DNA from: a virus | Length of the DNA stretch: 64,000 nt | Direction: 5' to 3' (one strand) | Virus record (IMG/VR): IMGVR_UViG_3300017991_000002 | Location: 62,001-126,000 of that record | Part shown: positions 37,938 to 60,802 of the stretch, one piece after another | How the letters are laid out: each line of letters starts with the position of its first letter | Position numbering within the stretch: the stretch's first letter is position 1 | Program-made: the position numbers and the translations under genes | The notes under the pieces: model-generated | Database searches by the model: none | What the model was told of the DNA's origin: nothing | Seen by the model: the letters and a program-made list of their open reading frames with translations, nothing else

Positions 37938-38906
37938 ATGGCAGACAGCATACCCACAGGCAAAGGAAATGAGGTAAGGTATAATTGCCCCTTCTGTAAA
38001 GAGAATACAGGAAGGGAGGATACAAAATATCATCTCTACTTCGACCCAGATAGGTTGTACCGAGGGGTCATCGGTCAGTTTGTCTGCTACCGCTGTGGGG
38101 AGAGGGGAAGTTGGCGAAGGCTGAGAACAGCACTTGATATCTCCGAAAGTAGTAGAAATGGCATAGATTCCAGGTTAACAAGGTTCCGATGGGGAGAAGT
38201 TAAAAATGATGAAGACTCCGGGAAAAGCACTATCATTGACCCCCCGGGTATCCCCATAACAAAAGGATCCCCCGCTGAAGATTACTTAATCAAAAGAGGG
38301 TTTTCAACTGGGCACATTAAGATGTATAAGCTGCTGGAAGGGGTAGGGAGTATGAGTGGTAGGGTAATAATACCAGCATATAAGGAGGATAAAATAGTAT
38401 TCTGGCAGGCCAGATCGGTCAAGGACAGTATTAAGCCGAAATACATATCCCCTCCTTCCTCCAGCAAGGGTGACACTATTTTCAATATAGAGAGAGCATC
38501 GGAATTTAAGAGGATGCACATTAAGGAAGGTCCGCTCAATGCTATCATGGGAGGACTCGATTGTGTTGCTCTTTTCGGAAAGGAAATATCCCCGGGGCAG
38601 TTATCTTCCTTGATCAAGAGCGGCGTAAAAGAATTTGTTATATGTTTGGATGATGATGCATTTAAGTGGTCGCTCAGATTAGCACAGAAAATAAAGAATA
38701 AAGACTCTAATCTGAAAGTATTCGTATACATCCCGCCAATGGGAAAGGACACCGTCGATGTAGGATTCAGGGAATTTCGTAGACTGGTTAAGGATCGGAC
38801 TGTTGATGTTAATACCTTATGCGGGGAGGAGACGGCGAGAATGACATTCCAGGAACTGATGAGAAAGGATATGATGGATGAGAAAGCTGAACTTACCCAA
38901 GGTTGA
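37938..38906 (+). CDS. DnaG-like primase (zinc-binding plus TOPRIM)
   Basis: The 322-residue protein begins with a zinc site (YNCPFCKEN ... VCYRCGERGSW) and continues with a middle region (LIKRGFSTGHIKMYKLLEG, IIPAYKEDKIVFWQARSV) and a TOPRIM core (VALFGKEISPGQL, FVICLDDDAFKWSLRLA). This is the DnaG order in a short form. It makes RNA primers for the replisome. Its last 29 bases overlap the polymerase gene. Confidence 0.88.
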   Translation: MADSIPTGKGNEVRYNCPFCKENTGREDTKYHLYFDPDRLYRGVIGQFVCYRCGERGSWRRLRTALDISESSRNGIDSRLTRFRWGEVKNDEDSGKSTIIDPPGIPITKGSPAEDYLIKRGFSTGHIKMYKLLEGVGSMSGRVIIPAYKEDKIVFWQARSVKDSIKPKYISPPSSSKGDTIFNIERASEFKRMHIKEGPLNAIMGGLDCVALFGKEISPGQLSSLIKSGVKEFVICLDDDAFKWSLRLAQKIKNKDSNLKVFVYIPPMGKDTVDVGFREFRRLVKDRTVDVNTLCGEETARMTFQELMRKDMMDEKAELTQG

Positions 38907-41754
38907 TGATGTACCTACTAGGGAATTGGGTATTCTGTTTGACCATCGTTGTGATATATGTGATCTTTGTCACTGGGCCACTAATGTAAAGATTAAACCC
39001 AGATACGGGGGCAAAAGGGTAAAGATTTTGATGATCGGGGAAGCCCCCGGGCCTCAAGAAGATCAAAAGGGAACCGCTTTTATTGGACCCTCCGGGATCA
39101 CAATAGATACATGTGTTCATGATGCAGGTGTCCCTTCTTCCCACGTAGGATTTACAAACGTCGTTCGATGCATACCTTGGAAGGATCCTTCCCTGAGAAT
39201 GGGGATAAGACAGCCTTCGCAAGAGGAGGTATATAACTGTGGAGCAGCTTATCTGTTTCGGGAAATAGGTCATGTCAAGCCAGATATTATAGTGACATTG
39301 GGGGTACCATCCGCAAAGTTCCTCTTGGGAGATCGTTTAGTCGGATCCTTGGGAAGAATTAGGGGAAGGATATTTGATGTCAGTATTTATGGAAATACCT
39401 ATCCTGTTATCCCGACGTATCATCCGGCCTCTGTCTTAAGGGGACAAGTCCAAAACAGGCAGGATATTATTCGAGACATAAGAAGAGCCTGGAAGATTGC
39501 TACCGGGGAAAAGTACTATTACTCTCCGACCACTCATATAATCAATGACACATATAAGGCAATAGAGCTCCTTCACGACATATGTGATATGAAGGAGAGC
39601 GGGTCAATAGAATACTGTTCATATGATATAGAAAGCACTGGCTTCGACCCCTGGAGTAATGAGATACTCGGTTTCTCTGTGAGTCATGATCCGAAGGTTG
39701 GATATTTCATACCACTTTACCATACGGAGTCTGATGTGGATGTGGACAAACTGATGCCTGCTTTTAAGAGATTTTCCTCAACGGTCCCGATTGTGGCCCA
39801 TAATGCAAAATTTGATTTCCTATGGACCTTTATACGACTGGGAGTTGAGCTGGACATAGAATTGGATACGTTCCTTATATCATCTCTTACCTACGGGGAA
39901 ACGAGGCGTCATAAGTTGGAAGAGCTGGCTCAGGATCTTCTTGATTTTAATGACTATGACACCTCTTTGCATAAATATGTGGAGACCCTCCCCGCCTCAA
40001 AAAGGCATTTTGGAAATGTTCCCTTAGAACTGTTGGGAACCTACGGGGCAATGGATGCGATTGCTACAAGATGCCTGGCTCCTATAATGAAAGAGAACAT
40101 AAAGACTCATGGTCTCGAGTATCCGTGGAATCTCTTACTGGAATCCATCTATGTTTTTTCGGAGATAGAATTAAACGGGTGGGCCGTTGACAGGGATAAA
40201 TTGGAGGAGTTGAAAAAGCTTTATCCTGAAAGGGTTATGGTTTATTTTAAGAAACTATTAAGATCAGAGGGGGCCAAGAATTTCCTTAGACAGCAGGAAG
40301 AGGACAAAAAACTTGCTCCCTTGCTTCACAGACTTGATGATATTGATAGCTTTGATGAGGGGGAGATGAAGGTCATATATAAAAAGTGCAATCCTATGTC
40401 CCACAAGCAGATGAGAACTATTATGTATGATTATTATAAGGCCCCTGTCCTGGAGAAAGAGAAATCAAAGAAAACGGAGGAGCCCAGCACTAACGAAAAA
40501 AGCATATTGAACGCCATTAAATACTTTAAATCGGAAGACGGGAATGAAGATGCTCACGAATTTCACCAGAACCTATGGGTCTGCAGGAAGATAAATAAGT
40601 CTATCTCTGCATATATCAAGGGTATCCCAAAGCACTTAAGAGAAGGGCAAGAAGAGGACATAATAAATTTCGTCTATAATCTCAGCGGAACAGTAACTGG
40701 AAGGTTCTCCACTAGAACATATGCTATACACACAACACCAAGGAAATCTGACATAAAGAGGCTGTTTCGGTCATTTTGGCATGATAGAGGAGGTCTTATA
40801 ATAGATGGAGATTACTCTCAATGGGAGATGAGAATCTTCGCTCTCGAGTCCGAAGAGACCGGCATGATTGAGGCATTCAAGAGGGGTTACGATATCTACC
40901 GCTACATAGGGTCAATAATATATGAAAAAGGAATGGAAGATATAACCGATGAAGAACGGCAGATCTCAAAGAAGATAGCCCTTGGGCTTATATACGGGTT
41001 GGGTATAGAATCCATAGCAGAACAATGTTTCATTCCTGTATACCAAGCGGAGGATGTCCTTTCGCGATTCTTTACGAAGTTCCCAGGGGCAAAGAACTAT
41101 ACGACCAGAATACACCGTAGAATGAAAACCGACGGATTTGTGAGAACCAGGCTGGGAAGGATACGGCACTTTCCAATGGCGATGGGAGACAGGGATGTCC
41201 CGAAATGGAAAATGCATAAGATGGAAAGAGAGGCCCAGAACTTTCCCATACAGAGTGTCGCCAGTGATCTTACATTAACGGGCTTGTTGTCATTTTTTGT
41301 GAGGCTCCGCAAAGGTGGGTTCAAGTCTCGTATATTAGGATTTGTGCATGACGGTATCCCGGCTGATGTATACCCGGGTGAGTTGTTTCCGATGATGCAT
41401 CAATTCAAAAAGGCGATGAATGACGATCTTACAGAAATGTATGAGTGGTTAACGATCCCTGTAAAATCAGATTTTAAATTAGGGAAAACGTGGGGAAGTA
41501 CCCTAGAAGTAAAGGATTGGAGAGATGGATATCTTAAATTGAAGGGAAAGAAGGAGTATTTTGAAGACCTGATCGATACACTGGGGAAAAATTATACATT
41601 TGAGTGGGAGATACTTGATGAATTTGAGGTCAAGGAGCAGGAATTTATCCTTGGGAAGGCTTATCAAGGATACAGTGAAGACAACGGTTATGTTGTTGCG
41701 GAGATAAGAGATGCCAAAACAATACAGGAAGTGCCATGGATAGATGTCAGATAA
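38878..41754 (+). CDS. Uracil-DNA glycosylase-DNA polymerase I (family A) fusion
   Basis: Residues 1 to about 210 form a family 4-type uracil-DNA glycosylase: Cys pairs (CDICDLC and later C), GEAPGPQED (54-62), TNVVRC (93-98), and HPASVLRG. Next is a 3'-5' exonuclease domain (YDIESTGF with D250/E252, VAHNAKFDF, YGAMDA). The polymerase has motif A DYSQWEMR (D645), motif B KKIALGLIYGLG (about 698-709) and motif C VHDG (H824, D825), where family A normally has VHDE. The 958 residues thus combine uracil excision with replicative synthesis, as in SPO1-type phages. ATG 38878 overlaps the primase gene. Confidence 0.93.
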   Translation: MRKLNLPKVDDVPTRELGILFDHRCDICDLCHWATNVKIKPRYGGKRVKILMIGEAPGPQEDQKGTAFIGPSGITIDTCVHDAGVPSSHVGFTNVVRCIPWKDPSLRMGIRQPSQEEVYNCGAAYLFREIGHVKPDIIVTLGVPSAKFLLGDRLVGSLGRIRGRIFDVSIYGNTYPVIPTYHPASVLRGQVQNRQDIIRDIRRAWKIATGEKYYYSPTTHIINDTYKAIELLHDICDMKESGSIEYCSYDIESTGFDPWSNEILGFSVSHDPKVGYFIPLYHTESDVDVDKLMPAFKRFSSTVPIVAHNAKFDFLWTFIRLGVELDIELDTFLISSLTYGETRRHKLEELAQDLLDFNDYDTSLHKYVETLPASKRHFGNVPLELLGTYGAMDAIATRCLAPIMKENIKTHGLEYPWNLLLESIYVFSEIELNGWAVDRDKLEELKKLYPERVMVYFKKLLRSEGAKNFLRQQEEDKKLAPLLHRLDDIDSFDEGEMKVIYKKCNPMSHKQMRTIMYDYYKAPVLEKEKSKKTEEPSTNEKSILNAIKYFKSEDGNEDAHEFHQNLWVCRKINKSISAYIKGIPKHLREGQEEDIINFVYNLSGTVTGRFSTRTYAIHTTPRKSDIKRLFRSFWHDRGGLIIDGDYSQWEMRIFALESEETGMIEAFKRGYDIYRYIGSIIYEKGMEDITDEERQISKKIALGLIYGLGIESIAEQCFIPVYQAEDVLSRFFTKFPGAKNYTTRIHRRMKTDGFVRTRLGRIRHFPMAMGDRDVPKWKMHKMEREAQNFPIQSVASDLTLTGLLSFFVRLRKGGFKSRILGFVHDGIPADVYPGELFPMMHQFKKAMNDDLTEMYEWLTIPVKSDFKLGKTWGSTLEVKDWRDGYLKLKGKKEYFEDLIDTLGKNYTFEWEILDEFEVKEQEFILGKAYQGYSEDNGYVVAEIRDAKTIQEVPWIDVR

Positions 41755-50086: not shown

Positions 50087-50806
50087 ATGGAAACACTAAG
50101 GCAGAAGGCTTTTAAGGATCTTTGTCAAGACTTGGCTCAAGATAGCTATCAACTATACTGCAATGATTCCAATCTCATAACGGCGGAGGATGTTGCCGAT
50201 TTAATAATCCCTATAGCAAAGATAATCCTCTTATCAACTTTCAGGGGAGTTCCAGAACACATATGGGATGACCTTATTTCAGAGGCTTATGTAAAAGTTT
50301 ATTATGCCATCAAGGACAAAAAGTGTGAACACGGCAGACCAATATTTCCCTACTTTTATAGTGTAATCAGGAATACATTTATAACTCATATAGACTCGTA
50401 CCTTCCCTTAGCAAAAAACACCATTCCAAAAGGATATGTCCCCCCCAAGAGCGGATACAGTATAAGAGCTGTTGAAACGCAAATGTTCTTGGAGAAACTA
50501 CCCGAAGTAATACGGGGCAGAGTTCTTAGGATGACAAGATTTACCGGGTTTGAATATGAAGCCTGCAAATACATATTAAACAGATTTCTTATGGACAAAA
50601 GAGTTGTTTACATTGTCCTGACAAACAGGTATTATATAGAAGAAGAGCACATACCGTTTTTTGTTGATTATGTGATTACGTTATACAGGATAGCATTATT
50701 CGGTATAAAAAAGAGATACTTGTGCACATCAGAACCGGATGAGTACACAACATGGGTCAATAAGGCCGCACGGAAGGGAGAGCGTGAAAGATCTGAAGAT
50801 AACTGA
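50087..50806 (+). CDS. Putative late sigma factor (sigma-70-like)
   Basis: 239 residues with a region 2-like core HIWDDLISEAYVKVYYAIKDKK...FPYFYSVIRNTFITHIDS (compare DL.Q.a...l..a...yd...g.F..Ya...irn.i.d..R). The C-terminal half is helical. Position right before the packaging and head genes parallels a late sigma such as T4 gp55. It may recognise the TATAAGTA motifs at 33711 and 55834. Judged by eye; remote similarity. Confidence 0.55.
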   Translation: METLRQKAFKDLCQDLAQDSYQLYCNDSNLITAEDVADLIIPIAKIILLSTFRGVPEHIWDDLISEAYVKVYYAIKDKKCEHGRPIFPYFYSVIRNTFITHIDSYLPLAKNTIPKGYVPPKSGYSIRAVETQMFLEKLPEVIRGRVLRMTRFTGFEYEACKYILNRFLMDKRVVYIVLTNRYYIEEEHIPFFVDYVITLYRIALFGIKKRYLCTSEPDEYTTWVNKAARKGERERSEDN

Positions 50807-51224: not shown

Positions 51225-51712
51225 GAGAGTTTATGGAATCATTGGCAACAAGGTCCAATGTAACTCCTGCTGCACGACTGGTTTTGGACGAGGATCCGAA
51301 TTCGGAAAAGTTAAAATATGAAATAGCCAGACGAATCTATATGAGAGAAGGTATGAGAGGCTGGGGAAAGATAGCCGAGAGGGTAGATGTGATTATAGAC
51401 TTTTATTCCGACGATGATTCAGAACAGATAAGAGATATGAGTCATCGGGACAGGATCAGGCTGCTGCATGAACTCTTCGGACAATCACAAAATTTTCTCC
51501 GTAACCTTAATGAGGCTATACGGACGGATACCGAATCTACTGGAATGGAGAAAAACCAGAACATCATCAATATACTGGCCTTCAGTGACGACGGTTCAGC
51601 CCTAACATCTGAGGAAGCACACCTTCAAAGAAAATCAAGACAGCGTGTAAGGGGTTTCATATCTGATCTACTGCTGTCAGCCAAAGGAAATGATGACAAA
51701 CAATCAGACTAG
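51188..51712 (+). CDS. Possible small terminase subunit
   Basis: 174 residues, helical and charged, immediately upstream of and overlapping the large terminase gene. Position, size and helical character fit a TerS, but I see no clear signature (it has NNNIINIL-type helices near 120 and a basic KSRQRVRG). The call is based on context. Confidence 0.4.
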   Translation: MSRTGRDPRESVREFMESLATRSNVTPAARLVLDEDPNSEKLKYEIARRIYMREGMRGWGKIAERVDVIIDFYSDDDSEQIRDMSHRDRIRLLHELFGQSQNFLRNLNEAIRTDTESTGMEKNQNIINILAFSDDGSALTSEEAHLQRKSRQRVRGFISDLLLSAKGNDDKQSD

Positions 51713-53795
51713 ACGGCTCAATATACCACTGCCACGATTTGATGACGAGGACATAGACCAAGAAATCTTTCTCGATGTTATCAGAGACTACGATATTAAC
51801 CTGTATGATAACTTCTTAGCAATGGATGAAGAAGAGCAGGAACAAGTAATTCAGATCGTATCAGACTTAATGACCCAAGGCAGCTCAGGCTCCTTGAAGA
51901 GCATATGGCAGCAAGATTTTATCAAGGTTCCTCCTACTCCCCAGGAATTTTTAGAGGATGAATATTTTGTCGGAAGAACGGCCAGATCACTCTATCCTGT
52001 GTGGAAAAAAGAACTCCTCTACGTCCTTGAGCCAAGAAATGACATAAGAGAGTGGATCATCTCGGGCTCGATAGGCAGTGGGAAGTCATTTGCGGCAACA
52101 TATGCCCAGGCCTATAAACTTGCTGTCTTATCCTGCCTTAGGAGCCCTCAGAAGTATTATGGCCTTGCTGAAGGAACTAGCCTGATTTTTTCGGTTTTTA
52201 ATCTGACTATAGACAAGACAGAGCTCACCCTCTACCAGGATCTTAAGAACCTTCTAAACTCATCCCCCTTCTTCAGAGAAACCTTCCCCCTGAAAACAGT
52301 ATATGGTTCAAAAGGGGAGGAGAAAGAGGTCCAGATGCCAAAAGGGGTTCATCTTATTCCCGGGTCTAAAGCAGTACATGCAATGAGTACCAACGTATTC
52401 TCCTGTATCCTGGACGAGATGAACTTTCGAGACTCTAAAAAGTCAGCGACCTATACTGAAAAGAGTGAAGCATTCAATCTATACACTCAGATACATCGAC
52501 GTATTGTCTCCAGGTTTATTACAGTCCCAGGTATCCTGGTTCTCATATCTTCTCGCCAAACAATCACCGATTTCCTCGAGGAGCATATAGAGAGGAATAG
52601 AACATCTCCTCATGTTCATATATCTGATTACGCCTTGTGGGAGACACTTCCTCCTCATAAATTTGAAATTTACCACAAGACTGGTAGAACTTTCTCCATG
52701 ATGATAGGGGATAGATCGAATAACAGGAATTCTCGGGTTTTAAAGGAGGACGAAGATCCTCCGGCCGATGCTACGATCAAAACCGGCATACCCATAGACC
52801 TATTGGAAGAGGCCATTAAGGATCCTAACGGATTTGCTCGTGATGTTGCCGGCGCTGCTACTTTCCCCTCCGAACCATTGATTTCGGACAGACAGCGTAT
52901 CGTTGCTTGTATTGATAATAGAAGACATCCGTTCGATTCAGAATCCATTGTCTTGAACTTTAAGTCCAATACAAAGGTACAAGATCATCTTATTGAAAGC
53001 ATGATAGTATGGGATACCGGAGATCGCGGGCTTCGTCCTATATTTCACCCGGAAAAGATACGTGTGATAGGATTGGATTTGAGCCTTACCGGGGATTCAA
53101 CCGGTATCGCAATGGGCTGCCCGGTAACAACGAAAGTGGTTCGAACCTTGCAAAGGAACCAAAAGACTGGTGAACTGGAATACAAGAAAATCCCCAGATG
53201 GATCATTCACTACGATTTTTTCCTGGAAATAAACCCTCCAGAATATGGTACGGGGGAGATTGATCTGGAGGGTATACAGGAGTTTGTGGTATATTTACGA
53301 GATAGTCTTCATTTTAATATTTGGAAAGTGAGCTGCGATGGTTATCAGTCCAGACATATGAGGCAAAATTTAATAAAGCGTAATTTTGATGCTGTTATCA
53401 CCTCGGTCGATGTTGACGACATAGCTTATATCGACTTAAAACAGGCTATTATAGAGGAAAGGGCATTATTTTATAATTATACTCCTTTTATGGAGATAGA
53501 ATACCTGCAACACTTTAAAAACGCAGGAAGGGTGGGATCCAAAAGAAAAGGACGGGTGGACCACTTAAAAAGTAAAAAGAAGGATGTATGTGACGCGGCA
53601 GCAGCGGTCGCTTTCCACTGCAATGCATACTCCCTGAGGGAACCGCTGGTTCCGACTGAGGATGATATTAAAAAACTTCAGACAGGAAGAGATAAAAGTA
53701 TCAAAGGGGAGAGAGTGTCTGATATGCTATATCATGACTATGTGAGTAAATCGTCGAAAGGTAGAAAGACGAGAAAAATTATCGGTATAAACTAA
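51690..53795 (+). CDS. terL: Terminase large subunit (TerL)
   Basis: The 701-residue protein has a packaging ATPase with Walker A GSIGSGKS (K132) and Walker B CILDEMN (D242, E243), and an RNase H-like nuclease with GLDLSLTGDS (D463), a central SCDGYQS and DVCDAAAA (D635). Both catalytic halves look complete. It should cut and pump DNA into the prohead through the portal. The start TRRLNIP recalls the C-terminal tag but at the N-terminus. Start ATG 51690 or 51693. Confidence 0.93.
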   Translation: MMTNNQTRRLNIPLPRFDDEDIDQEIFLDVIRDYDINLYDNFLAMDEEEQEQVIQIVSDLMTQGSSGSLKSIWQQDFIKVPPTPQEFLEDEYFVGRTARSLYPVWKKELLYVLEPRNDIREWIISGSIGSGKSFAATYAQAYKLAVLSCLRSPQKYYGLAEGTSLIFSVFNLTIDKTELTLYQDLKNLLNSSPFFRETFPLKTVYGSKGEEKEVQMPKGVHLIPGSKAVHAMSTNVFSCILDEMNFRDSKKSATYTEKSEAFNLYTQIHRRIVSRFITVPGILVLISSRQTITDFLEEHIERNRTSPHVHISDYALWETLPPHKFEIYHKTGRTFSMMIGDRSNNRNSRVLKEDEDPPADATIKTGIPIDLLEEAIKDPNGFARDVAGAATFPSEPLISDRQRIVACIDNRRHPFDSESIVLNFKSNTKVQDHLIESMIVWDTGDRGLRPIFHPEKIRVIGLDLSLTGDSTGIAMGCPVTTKVVRTLQRNQKTGELEYKKIPRWIIHYDFFLEINPPEYGTGEIDLEGIQEFVVYLRDSLHFNIWKVSCDGYQSRHMRQNLIKRNFDAVITSVDVDDIAYIDLKQAIIEERALFYNYTPFMEIEYLQHFKNAGRVGSKRKGRVDHLKSKKKDVCDAAAAVAFHCNAYSLREPLVPTEDDIKKLQTGRDKSIKGERVSDMLYHDYVSKSSKGRKTRKIIGIN

Positions 53796-53806
53796 AGGAG
53801 TATACC

Positions 53807-55504
53807 ATGGCCAATACAAAGAAATGGTTGCACCTCCTCTCATCCGGAGAAGAATTGCCAGGTTCTCAAAGGAAGAAGAGTAGACGGCAGCCGAGTATCG
53901 ATCAGAATAATCTTGAGGAATGGCTAAAGTGGCTCCGGGGAGAGGTAGAGGTCTATACGGATCGTAAACGGAAGTATAAGGAATATGAACGTATGGACGA
54001 TAAGTCCTTGGAAATATCGTCTGCCTTAGGTATGTATGCCAGCGATGCAACAGCTATCGATTGGAACATGCATACGAACTTGTGGATTGAGGCAAGGGAT
54101 AGAAAGATAAAGGCTGAAGGAGAAGCTCTGTTCGATGCCCTGGATATGCCTAACATGATCTGGTCTATTGCAAGGAATCTTGCAAAGTATGGAGACGACT
54201 TCGAGCGTCCCATTTTTGCAAGAGACAAAAATTGTGATCCTGTAATAGGAGGAGGAACCAATGGCATCGTTCAAATACGATGGGCCAACCCAAAGTATAT
54301 AGAAAGAATAGAGGATGAGTATTCTAAGTTAAAAGGGTTCCTCGACTCCGATCCTTGGCATCATAAAGTGGTCAAAAAGATGGTTAAGACAGGTGCGCTC
54401 GATCAGAAATTTAATGACGCCCGTAATGTCTCAAAAAGAAGACCATGGGATCTTATTCACTTTAGGCTGGTCGGAAAAGGGAGAAACATGAAATATGGAG
54501 GTGCCATGATAGAAGATGTTAGGGCAGTCTGGAAATATTTAGACCTTATAACGGAAGTTATCATGGTCACTAGACTATCCAGAGGACCCTCCAGAAAAGT
54601 ATTTTATGTTGATATAGGAGATAGAACACCTGACGAGGAGGCATGGGACATCATCAAATTCTGGAAGCAAATGATGAATAAAGACCATTGGCTTAACCCT
54701 CAGACGGGTGAATTTCGTTCTATTCATGACCCTAAATCGCCAAGTGAGAACTTGTTCTGGCCGGTTCGTGGTCAGAAGTCAGCATCAAGGATCGAGGAAC
54801 TTCCCGGTCTTACTGATGTCAGAGAGATGGCTGATGTTGATCTTCTTTGGACAAGGCTATTTTCTGGGCTAAAAATACCTCCTGAGTATTTTGGGTACCG
54901 AATAGGCGGAGGAGGCCTGACTACACCGAATAATGCCAGAACGTTAACCCTTCAGGATATGAGATATGCCCGGACGATAAAAACTCTCCAAGTTGCAATC
55001 TTGAGAGGTATTCACAGGATGTTGGATATTCACTTCTCTCTTCTTGGATGGAGTGAGGATTCCTTTAAAGGTAAGTATAATGTTATGCTTTCTGCAGTCA
55101 GTACAGATGAAGAGTTTCAAAGAAGTGAACTCATTTCATCAAAGCTGTCCCAAGCATCTCAGTGGGCAGATCTGGTAGAGAGGCTTAACGCCAATAAGGA
55201 AGCCGTACTTAAACATGTTTTAACGAAGGTTCTTAACTTGACAAAGACAGAAGCTGAAGAGATATCTGAGCCTCCACCACCTCCCCCTCAAGAGCCTCAA
55301 CAGGGAATCCCCGGGCAGCCTCCAATGGGAGGATACCCCGAGAGTTCGGAAAATAAGGAGTTGAAGAAGTTGTTGGAATCTGTCGAGGACCCGGAAGCTT
55401 TAAGGGAATTGATTTCTGAGCTCTCTAGGGGTGATGATGATCTTGTGAGGACTTATGACAACGATCCATTACCTATCCAAAACCCAGACGACGAGGAGGA
55501 ATAA
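53807..55504 (+). CDS. Portal protein (T4 gp20 type)
   Basis: 565 residues with the gp20-like pattern: SALGMYASDATAID near the start, RVFYVDIGDRTPDEEA-like segment (KVFYVDIGD), NPQTGEFRSIHDP, FWPVRG, ELPGLTDVREMADVDLLWTRLFSGLKIPPEYFG. The C-terminus is Pro/Gln-rich and acidic. It forms the 12-mer ring at the head vertex. Starts after AAAGGAGTAT. Confidence 0.88.
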   Translation: MANTKKWLHLLSSGEELPGSQRKKSRRQPSIDQNNLEEWLKWLRGEVEVYTDRKRKYKEYERMDDKSLEISSALGMYASDATAIDWNMHTNLWIEARDRKIKAEGEALFDALDMPNMIWSIARNLAKYGDDFERPIFARDKNCDPVIGGGTNGIVQIRWANPKYIERIEDEYSKLKGFLDSDPWHHKVVKKMVKTGALDQKFNDARNVSKRRPWDLIHFRLVGKGRNMKYGGAMIEDVRAVWKYLDLITEVIMVTRLSRGPSRKVFYVDIGDRTPDEEAWDIIKFWKQMMNKDHWLNPQTGEFRSIHDPKSPSENLFWPVRGQKSASRIEELPGLTDVREMADVDLLWTRLFSGLKIPPEYFGYRIGGGGLTTPNNARTLTLQDMRYARTIKTLQVAILRGIHRMLDIHFSLLGWSEDSFKGKYNVMLSAVSTDEEFQRSELISSKLSQASQWADLVERLNANKEAVLKHVLTKVLNLTKTEAEEISEPPPPPPQEPQQGIPGQPPMGGYPESSENKELKKLLESVEDPEALRELISELSRGDDDLVRTYDNDPLPIQNPDDEEE

Positions 55505-55877: not shown

Positions 55878-56783
55878 ATGGAGAGTTTTGATGAAGTAAA
55901 GAAAGAGATCAGGGAAAAAGAAGGGGATATTATCACTGTTGAATTTGGTCCTTACTCAATGCTGCCAAGCGGAAGCTTTGGTGATACAGAAGGGTTCTTT
56001 ACCCTAACCCCTACCCAGGAGGGACTGGGTATTTTAGCGAAGGCATGTAAAATACCCTCTTCTTATCTCAGGAACCTTCCTCCGGACCTTCAAGCTGAGA
56101 ATATCAACTACGGAGTCTATGCTCACTCTGTCCGGGAGAAATACAATCTTGTGGTTAAGGACCACAATCTCGTAGGACTGACCAAAAAAGATACAGAAAT
56201 AACCACAAATAAGGAGCTTGTGGAGACTCTCGAGAGTTCTCTCCTCTCTCTAGGTCTGGACAATCCAGAAGTCATAAACAGAGAGATAGGGACTTCCAGA
56301 TCCATGTACATAGTTAAACTGACCGGAACGGAGGTGGGAGTAGGTATTGCCTTGGAGATATTTCCCATGACAAGCAATCCGACCTTAATGATTCCATGTA
56401 TAATAGAGAAAAAGACTGGAATCATCTCGCTGCATCCTTCTGCAGGTAACATGGAAGGGTCATGCAAAGAGCCCATCATGAAAAACTTTATTCTGACAAG
56501 GGTTATCGACCAGAGCAAAATGCTAATAGAAGGCTTTGATAGGATGAAAACCACAGGTATAGATAATAAATTCGGCAGTCTAGAAGGTGCCTTGTCCTCT
56601 CTCAAAGTGGGAAAGTCCCTCAGTAAGTTTATAATGAAGAAATCTCTGAATGGCCTGCTGCTCACCGTGTACGATCTATACTTGTTTCTTCAGAGAGGCG
56701 ATAACTCCGAAAGTCTGCTGTCCAGGAAAACTACAAACACTATATGCGGAAAAATTATATCGAGGATGACAGGAAATGCCTAA
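55878..56783 (+). CDS. Hypothetical phage protein (301 aa), DUF932-like start
   Basis: The segment LTPTQEGLGILAKACKIPSSYLRNLPPDLQAENINYGVY resembles the N-terminal part of DUF932-type phage proteins, and a beta-rich middle and helical end follow. Start after AAAGGAGAAG. No enzymatic motif seen. It is the first gene after the candidate promoter at 55834. Confidence 0.65.
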   Translation: MESFDEVKKEIREKEGDIITVEFGPYSMLPSGSFGDTEGFFTLTPTQEGLGILAKACKIPSSYLRNLPPDLQAENINYGVYAHSVREKYNLVVKDHNLVGLTKKDTEITTNKELVETLESSLLSLGLDNPEVINREIGTSRSMYIVKLTGTEVGVGIALEIFPMTSNPTLMIPCIIEKKTGIISLHPSAGNMEGSCKEPIMKNFILTRVIDQSKMLIEGFDRMKTTGIDNKFGSLEGALSSLKVGKSLSKFIMKKSLNGLLLTVYDLYLFLQRGDNSESLLSRKTTNTICGKIISRMTGNA

Positions 56784-56967
56784 AAAGAAAGGAGGAACAG
56801 TAAACAACAGTAAACCAAAACGGGTTGACATAGAAGATATCATACGCTCTATATCAATCAAAATGAAGGACTCTTCCAATAGGGATGATGAGGAGGGAGG
56901 AGTTGATCCCACTCCTATCAGATATGTCAGGATCAGGAAGAATCCTAAGAAAGAGGAGAAAAAGTGA
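56776..56967 (+). CDS. Small charged protein (63 aa)
   Basis: It overlaps both neighbours. The start PKKKGGTVNNSKPKR is basic, the middle has an acidic DDEEGGV stretch, and the end is RYVRIRKNPKKEEKK. RYVRIRK is only loosely like the tag. Function unknown. Confidence 0.6.
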   Translation: MPKKKGGTVNNSKPKRVDIEDIIRSISIKMKDSSNRDDEEGGVDPTPIRYVRIRKNPKKEEKK

Positions 56968-59900
56968 AGAAAAAAATTATTTTTATTATTTTGATCACTA
57001 TGTTTTTTATACAGTACTCACAAAGCGAGGTACTGTATAAAGGGGACAAATCAGAATGTATGACCAAGGACGGTTTTCAGCTTCAGATCCCAATTATGCC
57101 TATTAGGTCCTCAAATTCTGATATGACCACTACCGGTATTATTGATCTTCCCATATGGGGTGGATATTTCCAGATGGCTGTTGACGAAGTGAGTGGAGAT
57201 GTTTGGCTTCTATATCACGAAGGAGGAGAGTATACAGAGTCTCCTGTATCTCTATTCAACTGTCATACCATGGAGAGAATAGCCGTACCTGATGCAAAGG
57301 TTAAATGGGGCCTGCTTAGGAGTGGGATTGCTGCCAGAGACGGAATTATCCACGTTGCCTGGTCTCCGGATAACCAGCACATCATGTATCGATCCTTTAA
57401 TACGGTATCAAGGACATGGACGGGACAGGAACAGATTTACCAAGACCAGGAATATCCCTCTGTCCCTGACGCTGATACGGGTAACTGCTCCCTTGCAGTG
57501 TCAAGCAATGGAACGGTTATGTGCGTCTTTGCATCAGACTTCAAGATGCAGAGCAGATTCAAATCCCCTGGACAGGGGTGGTCAGGGATTCAAGAAGTTG
57601 CCCCTTATCACACAAATGAGCCTCGGTGCCCAAGCGTCCAATCAAACGGAAATGGGTTTACGGTCTCTTATACAGCCGTATTTCATGCGGACAGGGGATC
57701 AGTGGCGACTTCCTATTGGAACGGAAATTGGAGTAGGGATCCTTATTACTGTAACGACGTTGGTTCCTCATGGCCGGACTCTGCCTCATGCTTTGTAGAT
57801 CCAAATGGTAACAATTACACTGCATGGATATTATGGGAGGGGTCCACTCAAAAGTATTCACGAATAGGATTTGGTCAAAAGGTAAATGGACAATGGAGTC
57901 AGAATACATGGAGCATTGTCTCTGTCGGGGGAGATATTGAGCATCCCCCAATGACTCCTGTTGCGGTTGATGCCGAGGGGAATATCGTTGCTGGATACTT
58001 TAACTTTGTCTCTTCAGACAAAAGAACCTTCTTAAAGATCAAGGAAAAGGGAAAGGATTGGGTTACTCTCCAGAAGGGTGAAGACAGCCATATTGCTGTC
58101 ACTTATAACCCAACCAACAAATATTTCTATTCAGTTTATATAAACGGAACCTTGAAGCTCGAAACCTTCAGTTTTGAGTCTCAGGTGGAACCAACCCCTA
58201 CCCCCACCCCGTCAACACCTGAAGACAACATTCCGCTATGGGATGTCTTTGAGGTAGAACTTTATACCTCTAAAAACTATGGCAATCCTTTTACCGATGA
58301 GACATTATTTGGATGGTTTGCCGAACCGGGAACGTCCCTCCCTTCAAATGAGTGTAATGGGGACTGCCATGCAGTTGAGGGAGTATATGATGGGATAGAA
58401 AACGGCAAGCATAAATTCTTGCTAAGATTCAGACCGGATATTAAAGGTGAGTGGACTTATGCAACATTCTCTGCCACTGGAAATACGGATCTGAGAATTG
58501 CAAATAAGAAGTTGACAGTAGTAGAGCCTAGAGAAAACAATCATGGTCCTATGCATCGAGATGGGAAATATATCTGGCATGCCGATGGCACAGCCCATCA
58601 ACACTTGGGTGGGACGTCATTCGGTCTCCTGTGGAGGGGTCCGTATCTTCAGTATCTCCAAAAGAACATAGACCAGGGAGTAACCTATTTCCGAATCGGC
58701 CTCCTGATAGCATGGGGAGAAGGGTGTTCTAGCCAAGGCGGATGGGAAGGATGCTGCGGCGATGGCTATAGGAATGGATGCTGGCTGGGACTCTCTCCCT
58801 TCGAAACGTGGTTCTTCCCCCCTACTCAAAATATTGATTGGGCACGGATGAATATTGGTCTATTTCAGAAGCTGGATGAGGTTATGAACTATCTCCTAGA
58901 GAGGGGATGCTATGCAGAACTCCTCATTTATGATGCATCGATCAATTACTGTCTACGGGAATATGGATCTGAGTACGGGTACGTGAAGGATGATGGAAGA
59001 CAGACTCACTATCTCAAATATTTGGCTAAGAGGTATAAGGCATATCCACATTTCTGGTATGAGCTTGGTAATGAGATCCGTCACTCTACTCCAATAACCC
59101 AAATGGCTCCCTCCCAGGAATGGGTGATTTGGGTTTTCAATACATTAAGCTCAATTGATCCTGAGAGACTTCTTGCTTATGAGGCCCCTGGTGCATCAGC
59201 TTATGGAGACCCCCAATGGGACTGGAATCCTTCATTTCACTACGATTGGTTCCATACTATTGAACAAGGCTCACATAAAGTAATCTTGGAGCAGTTTGCT
59301 GATATTATCAATATCCATACTGCTCGAGGGTATGAATGGTGGTCTGCCGGGCCTATGCAGATGGAGTACCTATCTGATACCTTCGGCAAGCCAGTCAACA
59401 ACGATGAACCTCATCGAAAAGGATACTATGGCATCCCGTGCGAGGACTGGCAGATACGGAGATCAGCCTGGAGGACAGCCTTCGTAGGAAATGCATACTA
59501 CACAATACACGGGGTTTCCCTTGGAGATTTCTGCAGGGCCTGCCTCGAAGACTCCGATCTGGGTGCTGGTATGTCAAATCACTTTACGAAGTTCTGGGAT
59601 AAGATAGGAACTTACAACTTCGAACGAGATAATAGCCTGATCGAAGGGTCTGGAAGTGCCCGTCGGTGTATGCATCGAGACAGCATTTATGTCTATTACG
59701 AAGAAGATGGATTCGGTTGGGTTCGATTAAAGACCCACCATAATAAGACATATGAGATGTATGTAATGGACACATCGACAGGTGAGGTTATTGAAGAGAA
59801 AATAAAAGACAGTCAGAACCCTACTGTGTTTATTGGCGACTTTAAACGTGACTATGCGGCCTTTCTTAGACCGTATACTCCTCCCACTCCAACACCAACT

Positions 59901-60083
59901 CCTACCCCGAAGCCTACACCAACCCCAGGCAACGGAGGTGGTCCGGGATGTGGATGTGCCCATTTCGCCTTTGCAAGTGAAGGGGAGTGGACAGTAGCGG
60001 ATGAGGCTATGGAGATAGGTCCCACCTTTTTGACGATAATCGTCCTGGTAATCGTTACTGGTTACTTAAGACGATACCTTTAA
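56964..60083 (+). CDS. Secreted membrane-anchored glycoside hydrolase with beta-propeller-like domain
   Basis: The 1039-residue protein begins with a signal peptide (about 1-21, KKKIIFIILITMFFIQ). Residues ~30-400 are a Trp/Gly-rich repeat region like BNR/sialidase propellers (SPDNQHIMYRSF, WPDSASCFVDPNG). A PTPTPTPSTP linker (~408) leads to a DUF5060-like sandwich, then a TIM-barrel hydrolase of DUF4038 type with YELGNEI (E704, likely acid/base) and PVNNDEPHR (E815, likely nucleophile). A second PTPTP linker, a GCGC motif and a C-terminal hydrophobic helix ending LRRYL follow, like bacterial CTERM sorting tails. It is a host-surface enzyme, not a virion tail spike. GTG start, overlapping the gene upstream. 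Confidence 0.8.
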   Translation: MKKKIIFIILITMFFIQYSQSEVLYKGDKSECMTKDGFQLQIPIMPIRSSNSDMTTTGIIDLPIWGGYFQMAVDEVSGDVWLLYHEGGEYTESPVSLFNCHTMERIAVPDAKVKWGLLRSGIAARDGIIHVAWSPDNQHIMYRSFNTVSRTWTGQEQIYQDQEYPSVPDADTGNCSLAVSSNGTVMCVFASDFKMQSRFKSPGQGWSGIQEVAPYHTNEPRCPSVQSNGNGFTVSYTAVFHADRGSVATSYWNGNWSRDPYYCNDVGSSWPDSASCFVDPNGNNYTAWILWEGSTQKYSRIGFGQKVNGQWSQNTWSIVSVGGDIEHPPMTPVAVDAEGNIVAGYFNFVSSDKRTFLKIKEKGKDWVTLQKGEDSHIAVTYNPTNKYFYSVYINGTLKLETFSFESQVEPTPTPTPSTPEDNIPLWDVFEVELYTSKNYGNPFTDETLFGWFAEPGTSLPSNECNGDCHAVEGVYDGIENGKHKFLLRFRPDIKGEWTYATFSATGNTDLRIANKKLTVVEPRENNHGPMHRDGKYIWHADGTAHQHLGGTSFGLLWRGPYLQYLQKNIDQGVTYFRIGLLIAWGEGCSSQGGWEGCCGDGYRNGCWLGLSPFETWFFPPTQNIDWARMNIGLFQKLDEVMNYLLERGCYAELLIYDASINYCLREYGSEYGYVKDDGRQTHYLKYLAKRYKAYPHFWYELGNEIRHSTPITQMAPSQEWVIWVFNTLSSIDPERLLAYEAPGASAYGDPQWDWNPSFHYDWFHTIEQGSHKVILEQFADIINIHTARGYEWWSAGPMQMEYLSDTFGKPVNNDEPHRKGYYGIPCEDWQIRRSAWRTAFVGNAYYTIHGVSLGDFCRACLEDSDLGAGMSNHFTKFWDKIGTYNFERDNSLIEGSGSARRCMHRDSIYVYYEEDGFGWVRLKTHHNKTYEMYVMDTSTGEVIEEKIKDSQNPTVFIGDFKRDYAAFLRPYTPPTPTPTPTPKPTPTPGNGGGPGCGCAHFAFASEGEWTVADEAMEIGPTFLTIIVLVIVTGYLRRYL

Positions 60084-60656: not shown

Positions 60657-60785
60657 AGGGACGGCGACGTGGTGGGAACACGTCCGATGACCGCATGTAG
60701 GCGTTGCACGGTGGCGGGACTGGCAGAAATCCTAGAAGCCTTGGAAAACCGAAACACGTAGGAGGTTCGATTCCTCCCGTCTCTG
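60657..60785 (+). ncRNA. tRNA-like RNA element
   Basis: A canonical T-arm (GGAGG-TTCGATT-CCTCC, 60761-60777) is followed by CGTCTCT (60778-60784), which pairs fully with AGGGACG at 60657-60663 (one G-U). A D-arm-like GACG/CGTC stem with a GG-containing loop lies at 60666-60684. The part between D- and T-arm is about 76 nt, too long for a normal tRNA, and no clean anticodon arm is visible, although CTTGGAAAACCG recalls a Ser(GGA) anticodon loop. It may be an interrupted or degenerate tRNA or a Y-RNA-like element. No CCA is encoded. Confidence 0.4.
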
Positions 60786-60802
60786 GACCGTTCTTTTGCT
60801 TC

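Follow-up and report, generated by a model that had tools for sequence, protein, structure and literature searches.

A predicted exported and membrane-anchored GH5-like glycan hydrolase encoded beside the head genes of a divergent myovirus

A predicted hydrolase gene within the terminase/portal run of a large phage

The window, the whole 64-kb stretch of DNA analysed here, covers positions 62001-126000 of a 205,367-base IMG/VR virus record. This record encodes a T4-type portal, a gp23-like capsid protein and a prohead protease. Its sheath, DUF4815 baseplate protein and UDG-PolA fusion, by contrast, resemble those of SPO1-like phages. It has only low similarity to named phages, and its source is a divergent large myovirus. 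The fusion of UDG to DNA polymerase A, common to SPO1-like phages, lies at 38878-41754 (+) of the window; together with the T4-type portal, capsid and protease, it identifies a mosaic lineage. Near the end of the window, a 1039-residue protein is encoded in a single intact open frame, with the following features and neighbours (window coordinates; residues of the encoded protein):

51690..53795, + strand, terminase large subunit (weak Pfam and PHROG matches)
53807..55504, + strand, T4-type portal protein (Pfam Portal_T4, 1e-41)
56776..56967, + strand, small lysine-rich gene, overlapping the start of the hydrolase gene by 4 bp
56953..56958, + strand, Shine-Dalgarno-like GAGGAG, seen in the sequence upstream of the GTG and within the small gene
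56964..60083, + strand, whole gene for the GH5-like hydrolase, predicted to be exported and anchored, 1039 aa
56964..57026, + strand, Sec signal peptide, residues 1-21, MKKKIIFIILITMFFIQYSQS, cleavage before E
57027..58190, + strand, N-terminal beta-rich domain, residues 22-409, matching no family
58191..58220, + strand, first PT linker, residues 410-419, from sequence
58233..58472, + strand, DUF5060 domain, residues 424-503 (Pfam PF16586, E 2.2e-9)
58473..59840, + strand, GH5-like (clan GH-A) TIM barrel and C-terminal beta segment, residues ~504-959 (Pfam, AlphaFold fold)
59073..59075, + strand, E704, candidate acid/base in a GNE motif, from the alignment
59406..59408, + strand, E815, candidate nucleophile in a PVNNDEP motif, from the alignment
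59877..59927, + strand, second PT linker, residues 972-988, from sequence
59946..59957, + strand, GCGC, residues 995-998, from sequence
60024..60068, + strand, C-terminal hydrophobic helix, residues 1021-1035, from hydropathy
60069..60074, + strand, RR, residues 1036-1037, basic end predicted to be cytoplasmic, from sequence

The GTG start overlaps the stop codon of the upstream gene by 4 bp (GTGA) and GAGGAG stands upstream of it; the signal peptide therefore belongs to the best start. As a preliminary description made from the sequence had noted, the gene sits beside head genes: the terminase-like and portal genes precede it in the same direction and it lies away from the ends of the contig; it is therefore no stray piece of host sequence. 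Among 60 large genes of the phage, it falls at the 45th percentile in codon usage and at the 50th in GC. The hydrolase gene thus belongs to the phage, within a terminase/portal gene run.

Two further elements lie near this run. Directly upstream of the terminase, at 50087-50806 (+), is a sigma-70 region 2-like protein that scores just under the Pfam cut-off and is a possible late sigma factor. Downstream of the hydrolase gene, a tRNA-like stretch at 60696-60786 (+) has a perfect T-arm, GGAGGTTCGATTCCTCC; it gives no ARAGORN call at normal settings, no Rfam tRNA and a weak sX4 match (E 0.07), and is possibly a decayed tRNA. No tRNA was found in any stretch of the record that we read.

DUF5060 and GH5-like catalytic module

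The preliminary description had proposed a DUF5060-like domain and a TIM barrel bearing both candidate catalytic glutamates, and comparison with Pfam bore out both: DUF5060 scores 37.9 bits, above its gathering score of 27.2, and the GH5 'Cellulase' family matches residues 632-750 (E 3.5e-5), barely over its cut-off. The pairs N703-E704 and D814-E815 are unchanged across the aligned bacterial homologs (48/48). AlphaFold modelling of the module on this 48-homolog alignment gave a pTM of 0.78 and a mean pLDDT of 69, with weak loops, and a fold search with the model returned 4n0r first (E 1e-22) and the GH5 mannanase ManDH5 second (E 4e-17), further GH5 mannanases ranking below it. 4n0r was also the only match when the hydrolase protein was compared with the PDB by phmmer. 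Sequence and model together provide a TIM barrel, an N-E acid/base and a Glu nucleophile, which place the module as GH5-like within clan GH-A.

Like 4n0r (BVU_0362) and its rhizobial and Paenibacillus relatives, the phage protein has DUF5060 followed by a TIM barrel with NE and DEP motifs. Unlike these bacterial DUF5060 hydrolases, of which the best relatives reach at most ~33% identity across part of the module, it adds an N-terminal beta domain, PT linkers and an anchor, and is encoded by a phage. With GH5 beta-mannanases (ManDH5, plant and fungal enzymes) it shares the predicted barrel fold and the Glu pair, whereas identity to them is ~14% and the phage substrate is only a fold-based guess. 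Outside the catalytic pair, many positions conserved in the bacterial homologs differ in the phage protein; part of this residue-difference table is misalignment, R577 probably pairing with the family Arg that MAFFT set against G579. Because so many family residues are changed, the substrate cannot be transferred from the bacterial homologs. It is most likely a beta-mannan-type or related polysaccharide, a predicted preference drawn solely from fold neighbours at TM ~0.56. These changed residues, and the long divergent branch on which the protein falls, would suit a relic or a protein that binds without catalysis; the intact 1039-codon frame nevertheless retains the two catalytic Glu with their neighbouring residues, and we regard this explanation as very improbable.

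The N-terminal ~390 residues have no Pfam match and no meaningful PDB match. A single-sequence AlphaFold model of this domain (pLDDT 36) was too poor for a fold search, and a leave-one-out test for blade repeats gave no clear signal. Of the beta-propeller-like domain first proposed here, only the beta-rich character can be claimed. The PT linkers were found as described.

Predicted export and anchoring

An N-terminal Sec signal combined with a C-terminal stop-transfer helix and basic end is the arrangement of a type I exported membrane protein, and both calls come from simple hydropathy rules only. The proposed signal peptide gains support from the start site with its GAGGAG, and the GCGC and hydrophobic anchor are present at the C-terminus, followed by RR. 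By the same rules, three signal peptides occur in ~203 kb of the phage, and the hydrolase gene alone encodes a C-terminal helix with a basic end. A signal together with a C-terminal anchor was found in 0/432 ORFs of other virus loci (ORFs of at least 300 aa) versus 1/50 in the phage, and an N-terminal signal alone in 2/432 versus 3/50; because the virus loci are redundant and the rule set is crude, these counts give a rough base rate only. Applied to bacterial ORFs, the rules found a signal in 54/703.

MYXO-CTERM has been described as a generic GCGC motif, a helix and an Arg cluster (PMC11980579). The phage tail likewise has a GCGC-type motif, a hydrophobic helix and terminal Arg; unlike MYXO-CTERM proteins, it has ~22 residues between GCGC and helix. 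The suggestion that CTERM sorting models might point to a host group did not hold: the tail matched none of them, including the curated MYXO-CTERM models TIGR03901 and TIGR03382 (NCBIfam), in a search in which a positive-control tail, composed to the canonical MYXO-CTERM pattern, scored 26.5 bits. Any putative sorting role apart, the C-terminal tail is an anchor.

Relatives and origin

Searches of 50,697 phage records, whether started from the phage protein or from a bacterial DUF5060 protein, returned no relative. IMG/VR motif scans with the phage protein and bacterial DUF5060 sequences also gave no match; these scans require near-exact short motifs, and records close to the present one may be left out by them. 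Single-sequence motifs from the phage protein matched no genome contigs, and relatives of the GH5-like hydrolase were absent from 45 virus records with a DUF4815 tail protein and from 19 records with a Spherulin4-like domain (described below). Across ~1,340 sampled genomes (Chloroflexota, Planctomycetota, Verrucomicrobiota, Acidobacteriota, Bacteroidota and one small phylum), the best matches reached 53 bits. We set aside weak matches that several genomes gave to the PT-linker region, together with an Acidobacteriota match to residues 125-211 located in an apparent peptidase that has a repeat domain of its own.

In the tree with bacterial relatives, the phage protein sits on a saturated branch of length ~10, and its placement is therefore uninterpretable. 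No donor lineage could be named among the sampled genomes or in the tree. The absence of a donor, the low identity, the saturated branch and the phage-median codon usage and GC together indicate that the gene, if captured, was captured long ago; the earlier reading of an auxiliary metabolic gene taken from a host is weakened to that extent.

If the gene is an auxiliary metabolic one, the anchored enzyme would break down plant, algal or fungal polysaccharide from the environment to fuel phage production. Viruses are known to encode glycoside hydrolases, among them a soil viral GH5 endomannanase with confirmed activity (PMC6786970) and a soil viral chitosanase (PMC9485262), and some bacterial DUF5060 relatives are encoded next to sugar ABC transporters. 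Against this, no sugar uptake or catabolic genes were seen adjoining the gene (window ORF list, Pfam families tested), the gain within a single lytic cycle is doubtful, no donor emerged and the composition is fully ameliorated; we consider this role unlikely. The phage hydrolase resembles both published enzymes in being encoded in a viral context and differs in having a predicted signal peptide and anchor: the main texts of these two papers do not contain 'signal peptide', and no report of an anchor was noticed in them. Like the GH32 enzymes of Bacillus phages SP10, phiNIT1 and SPG24, it is a large-phage hydrolase active on exopolysaccharide, by prediction here, whose action is thought to be extracellular; unlike them, it carries a signal and an anchor, the GH32 enzymes being without signal peptide (PMC4595243). 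The present gene stands apart through its combined signal and anchor, its DUF5060 type and the other signal-bearing proteins encoded by the same phage. The exported, anchored form and the absence of relatives in known phages are unusual.

Other signal-bearing proteins of the phage

Two further large proteins of the phage bear signal peptides, and their genes adjoin each other (record coordinates, with locus coordinates in brackets):

193572-194597 (L005:7572-8597), - strand, Spherulin4-like putative glycan hydrolase, 341 aa, with canonical signal peptide and Shine-Dalgarno
194616-197435 (L005:8616-11435), - strand, fibre-like beta-rich protein, ~939 aa

The Spherulin4 match of the 341-residue protein falls below the Pfam cut-off (21.1 versus 30.2 bits; motif GIFMDEAGYD). 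The same domain occurs at 20 IMG/VR places with ~49-60% identity, either standing alone (start MKPKNLL or similar) or, often, fused to an N-terminus of tail-fibre type (..RREIFND..NLExIHGKxGWH); several of these homologs have sheath, protease or terminase genes close by. Wherever the start of a homolog could be read, no cleavable signal peptide preceded the domain. The best start of the fibre-like protein, after GGAGTGA, yields a signal peptide (939 aa from there); almost no relatives of this protein were found in phages or IMG/VR.

Proteins of the tail-type region of this phage thus carry export signals. A Spherulin4-like tail-type domain with a signal means that a signal peptide alone is no mark of bacterial acquisition, and it weakens the earlier argument that virion depolymerases have none. 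These signals suggest a purpose shared with the hydrolase gene of the window.

The hydrolase might instead be a virion-associated depolymerase or adhesin with a signal-like N-terminus, assembled into particles despite its hydrophobic ends. That two tail-region genes start with signal peptides, one of them with tail-region viral homologs, speaks for such a protein. The hydrolase gene, however, is distant from the tail block and on the opposite strand, its C-terminus, an anchor with RR, does not resemble that of virion enzymes, and cleavable signals take proteins away from the cytoplasmic site of assembly; we judge a virion role to be decidedly improbable.

Proposed role

Phage polysaccharide depolymerases are usually regarded as parts of the virion. 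The best reading of the present gene is that the infected cell exports and anchors a retaining GH5-like hydrolase; export, topology and activity are inferred from the signal, the anchor, DUF5060 and the catalytic Glu pair. Export and anchoring, the core of the surface-enzyme interpretation first offered, remain the likeliest course, with room for its surface, biofilm and superinfection variants, while its arguments from signal-free virion depolymerases and from host capture are weakened. That the phage sends glycan hydrolases to the envelope of the infected cell against host exopolysaccharide is a proposal we hold at about even confidence. More tentatively, and with the balance somewhat against it, tail-type domains and a GH5-like enzyme may have been given Sec signals, one with an anchor, such that the infected cell and not the virion depolymerises.

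The hydrolase would enter the host Sec pathway and lose its signal peptide, and the C-terminal helix would then fix it in the membrane in type I orientation, its domains lying outside the cytoplasm. Depending on the Gram type of the host, 'outside' may mean the periplasm; a lipobox (o-spanin) scan of the phage for Gram type found none. The GH5-like module would act as a retaining endo-beta-glycanase, with glycan binding as the probable task of the N-terminal beta domain. Late in infection, the hydrolase and the signal-bearing Spherulin4-like putative hydrolase would cut back the exopolysaccharide or capsule of the infected cell itself, which may help progeny to leave and to avoid rebinding to debris, and possibly blocks superinfection.

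Superinfection exclusion could also be the main function, the enzyme serving less to free progeny than to destroy or mask a putative receptor glycan of the phage at the surface of the infected cell. Anchoring at the producing cell may suit such a cell-local effect better than free secretion would. The place of the gene in the terminase/portal run, though, points to expression late in infection, when there is less to gain from exclusion; we think it rather improbable that exclusion is the main function. If export by the infected cell is correct, host-displayed or secreted phage enzymes would tie together the evolution of depolymerases, escape from biofilms and control of superinfection. The Spherulin4-like domain, which follows a signal peptide in this phage and lacks one in the tail-region proteins of others, offers a directly testable pair.

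Elsewhere in the record, a CHAP-like small protein (L006:4852-5340, -) is a candidate endolysin, and the product of L006:8431-8946, near the CHAP-like gene, looks like a membrane coiled-coil (spanin-like) protein.
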